Source: a virus. Taken from it: a DNA stretch of 52,672 bases. Below are positions 1,783 through 4,854 of this stretch, in pieces. Below the pieces are notes generated by a model that saw only the letters and a list, made by a program, of their open reading frames with translations, had not been told where the DNA came from and searched no databases. The position numbers and the translations under genes are program-made. Where the stretch lies: IMG/VR virus record IMGVR_UViG_3300050821_009922, positions 1 to 52,672 of that record; one strand, 5' to 3'. Each line of letters opens with the position of its first letter. Positions within the stretch are counted from its first letter, which is position 1.

Positions 1783-1827
1783 AGTCTATTATTAAGTATC
1801 TATAGTAATAGATATATATAATAGACT
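1783..1827. repeat. AT-rich nested palindrome upstream of the ATPase gene
   Basis: AGTCTATTAT (1783-1792) is the exact reverse complement of ATAATAGACT (1818-1827). Inside it TATCTAT (1797-1803) pairs exactly with ATAGATA (1808-1814) around an AGTA loop. The structure spans 45 bp in a 158-bp intergenic gap and is followed at 1831-1836 by a TATAAT sequence. It could be an operator, a replication element or a cruciform; no convincing -35 element lies at the right distance from the TATAAT. Confidence 0.7.
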
Positions 1828-1841
1828 TAGTATAATGAAAC

Positions 1842-1923: not shown

Positions 1924-3411
1924 ATGGCTAATGTTGATCCCAAAGATGCTGCTATTGAGCAACTCAAAACTGCACTTACCGAGGTAACTGAGAAGTTGAA
2001 GGAACAGGACAAGATACTGAAAGACTTAGCTGAGCCCCCGGGAATGTTGGCCACACTGACTAATATCCTGCCAGTAGAAGCAGACGGTAGCCAGAAGCTG
2101 ATCATTGATGAACGGTTATTCGTACTCAGGCCTAAAAACTTGGCTAAGACCAAGCTTGAAATTGGGGATAGATTGCATGTCGGGAAGTCGACCATGGGAT
2201 CAGTGGCACTGATTGGCAAGATTGAGATCCCGGCTACTCCCATGGCGACTATGAAAGTGGCAGAGATTGTGAATGGACGGGTAATGCTAGAGCTGGGGGG
2301 CCAGATCATTCCCTTGCACAAGAATCCCCTGAAGAATGTTGAAGTGGGGGATCGGTTGGTGGTGGGAGGGCATTCTCCCTTCTTAGCCACCGCCATTGAG
2401 AATCTGGGGAAGGCTGAGAAGAGGTTTCAGTTCAACGAAGAACTGAATCTCAACTGGGATGATGTAGGGGGTCAGGTCAATGCTAAGGCTCAGCTGAGAG
2501 AGGCAATTGAGTATCCCATTCTGCACAAAGATCTCTACAAAGCCTTGGGCAAGAGGCCGATCAAGGGGGTGCTCTTGGAGGGGCCGCCGGGGTGCGGGAA
2601 GACTTTGCTCGCGAAAGCTGCAGCGGCAGCGATTGCCAAGTTGCATGATGTTGAGGCGGCAGCGAGTGGGTACATCTACGTGAAGGGACCCGAGGTTCTC
2701 TCCAAATGGGTGGGAGAAGCTGAAGCCACCATTCGGGGACTGTTTCATCTGGCCAGGGCTCATCGGGCTAAGCATGGCTATCCCGCAATTGTATTCGTGG
2801 ATGAGTGCGAGTCTTTGCTCAGCCGCAGGGGATCGGGAGTCAGCAGTGATATGGACAAGACCATTGTGCCCGCTTTCTTGGCAGAGCTGGATGGGTTGAG
2901 TGACTCGGGGGCCATGGTGATTCTGGCGACCAATCGGCCAGACCGGCTGGATTCAGCGGTTGTCCGGGAGGGCAGAATTGACCGCCGCATCCGGGTAGAC
3001 CGACCCAACCAGAAAGACTCGGCTGAGATCTTCCGGATCTATCTGAACCGGGTACCTACCGTGCAAGATGCAAAAGCGCTATCAGCCCATGCTGCAGAAG
3101 GCCTGTTTAGCCCCTCTAGCGGCTTGCTGGTGCTCAAGACGGAGCGGGGGGATACATTTCCCTTCACCTTGGGCCACATCGCCTCAGGGGCCATGATTGC
3201 GGGGATTGTAGACAGGGCTACGAGTCTGGTGTTGCAGCAGGCAGTGGCAACTGGGAATAAGTCGAAAGCTGCCATGCAACTCAATCAAGAGCACTTGTAC
3301 CAAGCCACTGATGCAGTTAAGACCATTATGGCTCAAGTGGATCACACCGCTGATATCCGAGCACTTGAGGACTTCCTCAAGACCAAGATTGTAGGGGTAG
3401 TACCAGCCTAA
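1924..3411 (+). CDS. AAA+ ATPase of the bacterial proteasomal ATPase type (Mpa/ARC-like)
   Basis: A 495-residue protein; ATG 1924 follows GGAGA by seven bases and is preferred over TTG 1900. Domain order is an N-terminal coiled coil (about 8-36), two tandem OB-like beta domains (about 40-105 and 108-160), then a AAA+ module. Visible motifs are WDDVGG (178-183), Walker A GPPGCGKT (220-227), pore loop KWVG (261-264), Walker B IVFVDE (289-294), RRGSGVSSD, sensor 1 ATNRPD (335-340) and GRIDRR arginine fingers. Coiled coil plus two OB folds plus RRGSGVSSD is the plan of actinobacterial Mpa/ARC, which form hexameric unfoldases that feed Pup-tagged proteins to the 20S proteasome. The C-terminus (KIVGVVPA) lacks the QYL or HbYX docking motif, so it may unfold without a standard proteasome. 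It is co-transcribed with the next four genes. Confidence 0.9.
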   Translation: MANVDPKDAAIEQLKTALTEVTEKLKEQDKILKDLAEPPGMLATLTNILPVEADGSQKLIIDERLFVLRPKNLAKTKLEIGDRLHVGKSTMGSVALIGKIEIPATPMATMKVAEIVNGRVMLELGGQIIPLHKNPLKNVEVGDRLVVGGHSPFLATAIENLGKAEKRFQFNEELNLNWDDVGGQVNAKAQLREAIEYPILHKDLYKALGKRPIKGVLLEGPPGCGKTLLAKAAAAAIAKLHDVEAAASGYIYVKGPEVLSKWVGEAEATIRGLFHLARAHRAKHGYPAIVFVDECESLLSRRGSGVSSDMDKTIVPAFLAELDGLSDSGAMVILATNRPDRLDSAVVREGRIDRRIRVDRPNQKDSAEIFRIYLNRVPTVQDAKALSAHAAEGLFSPSSGLLVLKTERGDTFPFTLGHIASGAMIAGIVDRATSLVLQQAVATGNKSKAAMQLNQEHLYQATDAVKTIMAQVDHTADIRALEDFLKTKIVGVVPA

Positions 3412-3439
3412 GTTATTCATTAACAAGGAGATTGTTAAA

Positions 3440-3634
3440 ATGGACCAGAAGCAGAAAACAGGATCAGTGTCTGCCTTGGGAGGTGGTGGAGGCTCAGATC
3501 TGAGTATCTCTCACCGAGTAGAAGCTCCCAGTATCGACGATGTGCTGAGAGCTGCCAGATCAGCTATCTCAGCTGCCAAGAAAACCATTGCCACTACTTC
3601 ACTGAAAGGATGTGGGTGCTTTGGAGATGACTAA
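3440..3634 (+). CDS. 64-residue Gly-rich small protein, possible partner or tag of the ATPase
   Basis: ATG 3440 follows AAGGAG and starts 28 bases after the ATPase stop. The product has 64 residues: a polar N-terminus (MDQKQKTGS), a GGGGGSD run, a helix beginning PSIDDVLRAARSAISAAKK, and a Cys-containing tail ending GCGCFGDD. Length, poly-Gly/Asp segment and the IDDVL helix recall Pup, the intrinsically disordered tag recognised by the Mpa coiled coil, but the diagnostic C-terminal GG[QE] is absent. The protein at 3949 repeats the helix motif. An adaptor or substrate role for the neighbouring ATPase is inference; family unknown. Confidence 0.75.
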   Translation: MDQKQKTGSVSALGGGGGSDLSISHRVEAPSIDDVLRAARSAISAAKKTIATTSLKGCGCFGDD

Positions 3635-3965
3635 CTTATTGAATATACTTGAGATAGGCGTTACTACTGGGGTGATTTCCCTCACTCTGACCAAATCCAA
3701 GCTGTTCAGCCCGGTCAGAAACTGGGTCCGTTACCGGTCCCCCTGGTGGGGAGAGCTGGTTTCCTGCCCCTACTGTGCCTCCCACTGGGTTGGGGGGCTA
3801 CTTACCCTCACCTCAAGGCCAGCAGGCCCTCTAGCATGGCTTTCTGCCTCCGCAATGGCCATTCTAATAGCAGCCCTGACCTCAGCCGTGATCTTCAGGG
3901 CAATTTCAACCATCAGTCCATCCCACCAGCCGGAGTTGGAGGAACTCTATGCCGAAAGCACCTAG
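3627..3965 (+). CDS. DUF1360-like membrane protein
   Basis: About 112 residues from ATG 3627, overlapping the end of the 64-residue gene; GTG 3612 is an alternative start. The pattern of an N-terminal hydrophobic helix, then LTKSKLFSPVR, then WWGELVSCPYCASHWVGG, then a second long hydrophobic helix (about residues 70-95) matches the DUF1360 family of small membrane proteins found in phages and bacteria. The paired cysteines (CPYC) are the family hallmark. Molecular function is unknown. Its place between the ATPase and the helix-motif protein suggests a link to the membrane, by inference. Confidence 0.75.
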   Translation: MTNLLNILEIGVTTGVISLTLTKSKLFSPVRNWVRYRSPWWGELVSCPYCASHWVGGLLTLTSRPAGPLAWLSASAMAILIAALTSAVIFRAISTISPSHQPELEELYAEST

Positions 3966-4377
3966 CCCAGAGAAGCAACAGGTTGAGATTGTTGAGGAAC
4001 CTAAGACTCCTCGGGAAGTGGCTGCGGCTGAGCTACTGAAACGACTGGAGAAACCGGTCCAGCCACCACCCATTGAGGACACCTTGGAGAAGGCTAACCA
4101 GGCCATTGCTCAAGCTAAAAAGGCTCGTACTCGGGAGAAAATGACTTGGTACTGCACCGATTGTGGGGGTCCCCATATCCAGAACGATAACATGGGGTTA
4201 GGGCTGGGTCACATCAACGTTGATGTAGACGATGGGAAGTTTGTTGATGACTCTGGCCAGCCTCTTACCGGAAGTCCCCTTCGCCTCATGCAAGAGTACG
4301 CCGCTCCGAAAGCTCAGTCCGGCCAGGGACACAAAGCAGGAACTAACGCTCAGACTCTATCAAAAATGAAGCAATGA
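3949..4377 (+). CDS. Hypothetical protein sharing a helix motif with the 64-residue protein
   Basis: ATG 3949 follows GGAGG by six bases and overlaps the previous gene by 17 bases. The 142-residue product has a Pro/Glu-rich N-terminus and a helix PPIEDTLEKANQAIAQAKK (about 39-57). This helix matches PSIDDVLRAARSAISAAKK in the 3440 protein at many positions, after which comes a small Cys pair (WYCTDCGG). The C-terminal half is Gly and Gln rich. The shared helix suggests that both small proteins bind the same partner, perhaps the coiled coil of the Mpa-like ATPase; this is inference. Confidence 0.75.
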   Translation: MPKAPSPEKQQVEIVEEPKTPREVAAAELLKRLEKPVQPPPIEDTLEKANQAIAQAKKARTREKMTWYCTDCGGPHIQNDNMGLGLGHINVDVDDGKFVDDSGQPLTGSPLRLMQEYAAPKAQSGQGHKAGTNAQTLSKMKQ

Positions 4378-4388
4378 AAGGAGTTACT

Positions 4389-4808
4389 ATGCCTATCACT
4401 ACCTCTCAAGACACCATGAAAGCCCTTCTGGATGAAATTACCAACGCTGATCCGGAGATGCTTCCGCCTCCCAGCAAAAAGGAATCCAGCGACCGACACC
4501 TGGGCTTCGTCACTGACGACTACATCAAGCGCGTATTCTCCCTCTCCTGCTTCTACCGCCGCGAGGGTCAACGCCTGCAGATTGATCTTGAAGCTGCCGG
4601 GGAAGAGCCTAAACAGTCTCCTGACTATAACATGCACAAACAGCGCCACGACACCCTCATGGAGGTATTCTGGTTCCTACTTCGGTCTCAGATCAACATC
4701 TGGGGAGTCGACATCGGTATCCGCAAGGGCTGGGAAGTGGTCCAGTGCAACTCCGATGATGACAAGCTACCCAAGGCTCTGCTCAAGAAGTTGCTGGGCG
4801 GAGAGTAG
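4389..4808 (+). CDS. Hypothetical protein, last gene of the ATPase operon
   Basis: ATG 4389 follows AAAGGAG by six bases; the ATG at 4374 overlaps the previous stop (ATGA) but is too close to its own site. The 139-residue product is mostly helical and charged with a central segment DYIKRVFSLSCFYRREGQRLQIDL and a C-terminal GWEVVQC strand. No domain is recognised. It ends 16 bases before the operon terminator. Confidence 0.75.
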   Translation: MPITTSQDTMKALLDEITNADPEMLPPPSKKESSDRHLGFVTDDYIKRVFSLSCFYRREGQRLQIDLEAAGEEPKQSPDYNMHKQRHDTLMEVFWFLLRSQINIWGVDIGIRKGWEVVQCNSDDDKLPKALLKKLLGGE

Positions 4809-4824
4809 GGCTGATCGACTTCTG

Positions 4825-4854
4825 GGCAGGGCTGACCCCCCTGCCTATTTTTAT
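4825..4854 (+). terminator. Rho-independent terminator of the early operon
   Basis: GGCAGGG (4825-4831) and CCCTGCC (4839-4845) form a 7-bp GC stem, followed by TATTTTTAT. It lies just after the stop at 4808 and before the convergent gene at 4972-5724. Confidence 0.85.

Follow-up and report, generated by a model that had tools for sequence, protein, structure and literature searches.

The window, as we call the whole 52,672-nucleotide stretch of viral DNA analyzed here (IMG/VR record IMGVR_UViG_3300050821_009922, positions 1 to 52,672), encodes an AAA+ ATPase that has the architecture of Mpa/ARC, belongs to a viral clade of its own and is linked to genes for a family of small proteins with a weak likeness to Pup. 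We prefer to read this locus as a self-contained, adaptor-fed unfoldase, possibly tethered to the membrane, rather than as a thief of substrates from the host proteasome. That it is a self-contained, adaptor-fed phage module with no need of a 20S core is, in our judgment, an evenly balanced proposition. The features of the locus are collected in Table 1.

Table 1. Features of the ATPase operon and its flanks in the window.
Feature	Position	Strand	Details and basis
Promoter-like site, 10/12	1809..1836	+	precedes the ATPase gene; based on a consensus match only
Mpa/ARC-like AAA+ ATPase	1924..3411	+	495 aa; family match and trees
N-terminal helix, candidate short coiled coil	1939..2031	+	residues 6-36; AF2 model
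First OB-type domain	2044..2220	+	about residues 41-99; AF2 strands, Foldseek to Mpa 7px9/3fp9
Second OB-type domain	2239..2412	+	about residues 106-163; AF2 strands, Foldseek to Mpa
AAA+ core	2437..3078	+	residues 172-385
AAA+ core sites			Walker A GPPGCGKT 220-227, pore loop KWVG 261-264, Walker B VFVDE 290-294, R348, R351
Pup-like small protein 1	3440..3634	+	64 aa; scores 32.8 bits with a helper-family profile that excludes it
Cys tail C58-G-C60 of Pup-like protein 1	3611..3619	+	translation, family pattern
DUF1360 membrane protein	3627..3965	+	112 aa; motif CPYCASHW
Pup-like helper 2	3949..4377	+	142 aa; 14.9 bits to the helper-family profile
Protein of unassigned family, ends LLGGE	4389..4808	+	139 aa; last in run, may lie outside the module
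Terminator-like hairpin and T-run	4823..4847	+	past the last gene; consensus match only

The ATPase and its viral relatives

The ATPase reading frame begins with ATG and contains no internal stop, and an upstream TTG at position 1900 could lengthen it. Its place in a phage, claimed by a first-pass annotation made from the DNA letters, is borne out by the tailed-phage genes on the same contig, which encode terminase, portal, major head and internal virion proteins. The motifs WDDVGG, GPPGCGKT, VFVDE, RRGSGVSSD and ATNRPD are present in the translation as that annotation quoted them, and the Walker A and B, pore-loop and arginine residues are conserved.

Pfam AAA matches the protein with E=1.5e-31. 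Among the NCBIfam families, TIGR03689 (pup_AAA) scored highest, with 280.6 bits (residues 12-455); the models for CDC48 and PAN gave 191.8 and 169.9 bits. This score misses the curated TIGR03689 cut-off of 504.75, and the cellular-type ARCs L030 and L033 reached 609 and 631 bits in the same test. When the PDB sequences were searched with phmmer, Cdc48 came out on top in summed score owing to its two AAA domains; Mpa gave one continuous match of 191 bits, whereas the better Cdc48 domain gave 155 bits.

The N-terminal region carries the family likeness as well. The first 165 residues alone align with TIGR03689 model positions 17-156 (E=0.0095). An AF2 model of residues 1-171, computed from a 39-sequence alignment that included four cellular-type ARCs, reached a pLDDT of 90.6 and consists of a 31-residue helix followed by two five-strand domains. 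The 13 best matches of this model in a Foldseek search of the PDB were all Mpa (7px9, 7pxc, 7ljf, 7pxd and 3fp9; best E 4.6e-4, prob 1.00), and because of this we take the OB-like domains to be real. The Mpa/ARC-type architecture and the two OB-like domains of the first-pass annotation are thus confirmed by both the profile search and the structure prediction that it had proposed; a Vps4-, Cdc48- or FtsH-type best match lacking an OB ring was looked for and not found. It was also right that the docking tail is missing, the C-terminus reading VGVVPA in place of GQYL. This motif is not universal, even within ARCs (PMC3511204).

How widely is this ATPase distributed among viruses? A scan of viral contigs with its single sequence returned zero relatives, whereas alignment-based scans, which also supply the search for phage homologues proposed earlier, returned about 90 distinct ones. 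In a FastTree analysis of 236 AAA domains, the 90 viral rows formed a single clade (support 99) that is sister to cellular Mpa/ARC (joint support 97) and apart from PAN, CDC48 and FtsH. Similarly, IQ-TREE placed 36 viral rows of 78 in one clade (99/94) and 15 ARC rows in another (100/96). In both trees, the AAA+ core of the window ATPase is sister to the cellular ARC clade and lies outside it. The identification as Mpa/ARC consequently holds for the architecture, and we do not extend it to orthology, given the viral sister clade and the missed TIGR03689 cut-off.

About 60 of the viral relatives are of the window type, mostly with the coiled-coil helix and two OB domains, and include a subgroup with one OB. 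About 30 resemble the ATPase of phage Polewnik; many of these carry an N-terminal GCGDPxCxxC motif, and OB homology was looked for in them and not seen. The contigs that bear the module range from those of small phages to those of huge phages of >600 kb. Viral-contig matches ending in QYL or MYL (L025, L030, L032 and L033) were classed as cellular-type ARCs. A record labeled as a human-gut bacteriophage (H29/L004, MT835496.1) was removed from the viral set: it holds an actinobacterial arc(mpa)-dop-pup-pafA region, probably a bacterial contaminant. L231, which falls in the viral clade, came out of a cellular genome collection; its 13.7-kb contig, from a metagenome bin, may itself be of viral origin.

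Several variants were observed among these loci. In the short-ATPase subgroup (L003, L024, L026, L028, L029, L034 and L070), proteins with an intact N-terminus have 362-417 aa and apparently one OB, L029 and L034 being N-terminally truncated ORFs, and the accompanying helpers contain GCGCGG or CCGCGC internally, with a second conserved stretch after it. The viral contig L133 (5911-8349) encodes an 812-aa ATPase ORF with an apparent intein- or HNH-like insertion before the aligned AAA core. Several viral loci encode a second, different AAA protein of ~500 aa no more than ~3.5 kb from the ATPase gene (L017 8258-9751, L119 9037-10596, L121 8668-10362, L019 12781-14244, L146 3860-5470 and L132 3706-5199). 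A related AAA ATPase (L317 5737-7029) is found on the Methylobacterium indicum plasmid NZ_AP024147.1, which also has phage-like genes (ribonucleotide reductase, YqaJ) and is possibly a phage-plasmid.

Small helper proteins and the DUF1360 protein

The genes within 1924-4808 are tightly packed or overlapping and are flanked by promoter-like and terminator-like sites. In 34 of the 60 window-type loci, a DUF1360 gene lies 127-898 bp downstream of the ATPase on the same strand; beside the Polewnik-type ATPases, none was found (0/30 loci). The window DUF1360 protein passes the curated cut-off of PF07098 (24.7 bits vs 21), and its AF2 model is all-helical with a pLDDT of 93; a fold search of this model against the PDB gave zero significant matches. 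Across 28 DUF1360 proteins, an Arg, two Cys and a His are invariant, in the pattern RxW...CPYCxSHW. Our literature search found no paper on DUF1360 in phages and almost nothing on DUF1360 at all. For the last protein of the run, no homologue was found in related loci; its final three residues are as in the Pup of some bacteria, which may be chance.

The usual ORF between the ATPase and DUF1360 genes encodes 60-120 aa: a basic N-terminus, often rich in Gly, then a PxxDDVLxxLDxAIxxA helix and a cysteine tail (CGC, CWC, CVC, CKC, CEC, CTCW, CCCC and others). Among the small ORFs of these loci, 0.23% have a C[GC]C near the C-terminus. In the window, Pup-like protein 1 has a G-rich N-terminus, the helix EAPSIDDVLRAARSAISAAK (residues 28-47) and the Cys tail GCGCFGDD, and helper 2 has the helix PPPIEDTLEKANQAIAQAKKA, then CTDCGG and one more region, its profile score lying above that of the best unrelated ORF (9.1 bits). 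An adaptor-like ORF occurs in 41/60 window-type loci, a count that is partly circular in that the family was hand-assembled from ATPase-adjacent ORFs; at least two occur in 12 loci, and the helper profile found none in 19. Several loci that lack DUF1360 have a helper-like ORF ending in the knuckle ICxCGxPGCxIGPF, sometimes as a tandem pair.

What the helpers share is the N-terminus and helix; the C-terminal parts differ among Cys tails, knuckles and other domains. In L095 (8075-8485) and L097 (7169-7663), a larger C-terminal domain replaces the Cys tail behind the same N-terminus and helix, which suggests a modular recruitment segment. The motif ICxCG[DN]PxC is found both in small proteins (L018) and within the N-termini of Polewnik-type ATPases (ICWCGDPNC in L148, ICWCGNPNC in L218), so the cysteine module exists in trans and in cis. 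The Cys-tail type of helper occurs only with DUF1360 (22 vs 0; Fisher 4.8e-8), an association that is phylogenetically clustered. As independent evidence of coupling it was rejected, since supported branches yield only 2 independent pairs, which is not significant.

Could the cysteines make the helpers a covalent, thiol-linked analogue of Pup (joined to targets by a disulfide or a thioester) and DUF1360 their exchange factor? The C-terminal CxC tails and the CPxC of DUF1360, with both of its cysteines invariant, would fit such chemistry. We nevertheless judge it very unlikely, in view of the lack of any ligase in our searches, the normally reducing state of the cytosol and an all-helical DUF1360 model with no significant PDB match.

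In Pup itself, which is small and disordered, a helix attaches to the coiled coil of Mpa, the N-terminus enters the pore by threading, and the C-terminal Glu is the residue that PafA conjugates (PMC3511204). In the phage helper, the parts follow one another as they do in Pup. The helper profile ranks true Pups higher than unrelated ORFs. For 29 actinobacterial Pups kept out of the profile, the median score was 14.6 bits, with 27 of them at 9.1 or more; the best of 3,834 unrelated ORFs, a mechanical background, reached 8.0 bits. The real Pups also exceeded their composition shuffles in 27/29 cases. With hhalign, the helper pattern IPxVDDxLKxLDxAL aligned to LDxLLDEIDxVLEE of Pup with a score of 23.8, whereas the highest of 150 column shuffles reached 11.7; as proof of homology this is undercut by the reversed Pup profile, which scored 20.7. 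The Pfam Pup model (PF05639) gave no match to Pup-like protein 1 at E<=10, whereas the true Pup of L004 scored 66.5 bits, and the terminal GGE or GGQ is absent from the helper. Since the reversed controls score close to the forward ones, Pfam Pup is silent and the background is mechanical, we limit our claim to a Pup-like architecture, with a sequence signal that is real but weak and is in part explained by the reversed-Pup control, and do not claim homology.

The same controls bear on the possibility that the cysteines bind metal (zinc or Fe-S), that the helpers serve the motor as small regulators or metal sensors, with no role as tags, and that their likeness to Pup is a convergence of acidic amphipathic helices. 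Such a role would suit the knuckle-like motifs (ICxCGxPGCxIGPF, CGDPxCxxC) and the near-equal scores of the reversed-Pup control. It sits less well with the conserved order of basic Gly-rich N-terminus, helix and tail, and with the helper-profile scores of the Pups themselves, which outscore their reversed versions in 26/29 cases (mean 14.0 vs 8.7 bits). We regard it as rather unlikely.

Partners, host and proposed mechanism

Family searches of 40 records including the window, some of them fragments, found no Pup ligase or Dop (0/40) and no 20S-type protease (0/40). ClpP was considered as a protease partner and rejected; it exceeded the cut-off in 8/40 records but not in the window. Within the clade, Polewnik and Strzyga alone are isolated phages with a named host; both infect Brevundimonas, and the Polewnik type is only a cousin of the window ATPase. 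Brevundimonas belongs to the Pseudomonadota and shares its family with Caulobacter. When the host Pup genes were searched for in this phylum, as the first-pass annotation had advised, no Pup ligase was found in 150 sampled Pseudomonadota genomes or in the Caulobacter control genome. A proteasome goes unmentioned in the Polewnik paper, and a literature search found no paper on a phage Mpa/ARC.

The annotation had suggested that the phage acts on host or tagged proteins, or robs the host proteasome of its substrates. That the ATPase is a decoy or thief of this kind, acting on host-pupylated proteins or on the host proteasome, draws on its nearest cellular family being Mpa/ARC, on the match of its N-terminus to Mpa and on the missing 20S docking tail. 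The evidence above did not support robbery of the host proteasome or action on host-pupylated proteins: the ATPase is accompanied by its own Pup-like helper genes, ligase/Dop and 20S were not found in the 40 records, some phages of the clade infect a host phylum without Pup ligase in the sampled genomes, and a separate viral clade would not be expected of a recent host capture. We consider such theft quite improbable; together with the thiol-linked tag, it is the least supported of the rivals. On the other hand, the annotation's alternative idea of a different partner gains support.

The lack of a protease partner in the family searches of the window would also suit a chaperone for virion assembly or membrane remodeling, acting on phage structural or membrane proteins, with the helpers as substrates or scaffolds rather than reusable adaptors. 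DUF1360 is, after all, a membrane protein, and several helpers have extra domains. We find this unlikely, as the window operon lies on the other strand from the structural genes and distant from them.

How, then, might a self-contained unfoldase operate? The motor would be an AAA+ hexamer from a family sister to Mpa/ARC, composed of a short N-terminal coiled coil, a double OB ring and the AAA+ core, with small adaptors or tags of its own to supply it. In analogy to Pup, the adaptor helix may bind the motor coiled coil, and the disordered adaptor N-terminus may be threaded into the motor pore. The C-terminal cysteines, in place of the conjugated GGE/GGQ of Pup, would join the adaptor to something else. 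The likeliest target is the DUF1360 membrane protein, where present, reached via CPxCxSHW through a shared metal site or a disulfide, and the cysteine knuckles or globular domains of other adaptors might reach other targets. The ring could then pull on the attached protein at the membrane and remodel or extract it, with whatever consequence for the host, and a 20S core would be unneeded.

A broader proposal is that viruses keep a Mpa-plus-Pup-like system of their own, apart from that of cells. Its small interchangeable tags would share an ATPase-recognition helix and be joined by cysteines to their targets or to a membrane anchor, with no ligase and no proteasome. We hold this to be credible, while leaning somewhat against it.

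Comparison with known systems

The AAA+ cores of PAN, CDC48 and FtsH are related to that of the phage ATPase, yet they form separate clades. Mpa/ARC (TIGR03689) has the same helix, double OB and single AAA+ domain in equal order, together with the motor motifs. The phage protein differs in its separate viral clade, its shorter N-terminal helix, its score below 504.75 bits and its lack of GQYL, and searches of the phage found neither a Pup ligase nor a 20S. The ATPases of the Brevundimonas phages Polewnik and Strzyga, annotated as proteasome-associated ATPases, belong to the same viral clade (Polewnik being in the tree); unlike the window ATPase, they show no coiled-coil or OB homology, carry an N-terminal CGDPNCxxC in cis and have no DUF1360 nearby.

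The corynebacterial ARC offers a cellular parallel, as the ATPase is retained there without a 20S and without the docking motif (PMC3511204). The phage shares both traits but differs in that no Pup ligase or Dop was found, whereas Pup and its enzymes are present in those bacteria.

With Pup (PF05639), the helpers share a small size, a low-complexity N-terminus, a mid-protein helix that aligns with the Mpa-binding helix of Pup and a place in the ATPase operon. They differ in having cysteine motifs for GGE/GGQ, in the lack of a Pfam match and of any ligase found, and in that a phage locus often has at least two different helpers. Pupylation is regarded as a cellular system of unclear origin. The ATPase operon is an unstudied phage module, of which we found no description, and it gives DUF1360 a genomic context. 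If our reading is true, an ATPase and a small recruiting protein can function as a unit alone, which might bear on the origin of Pup.
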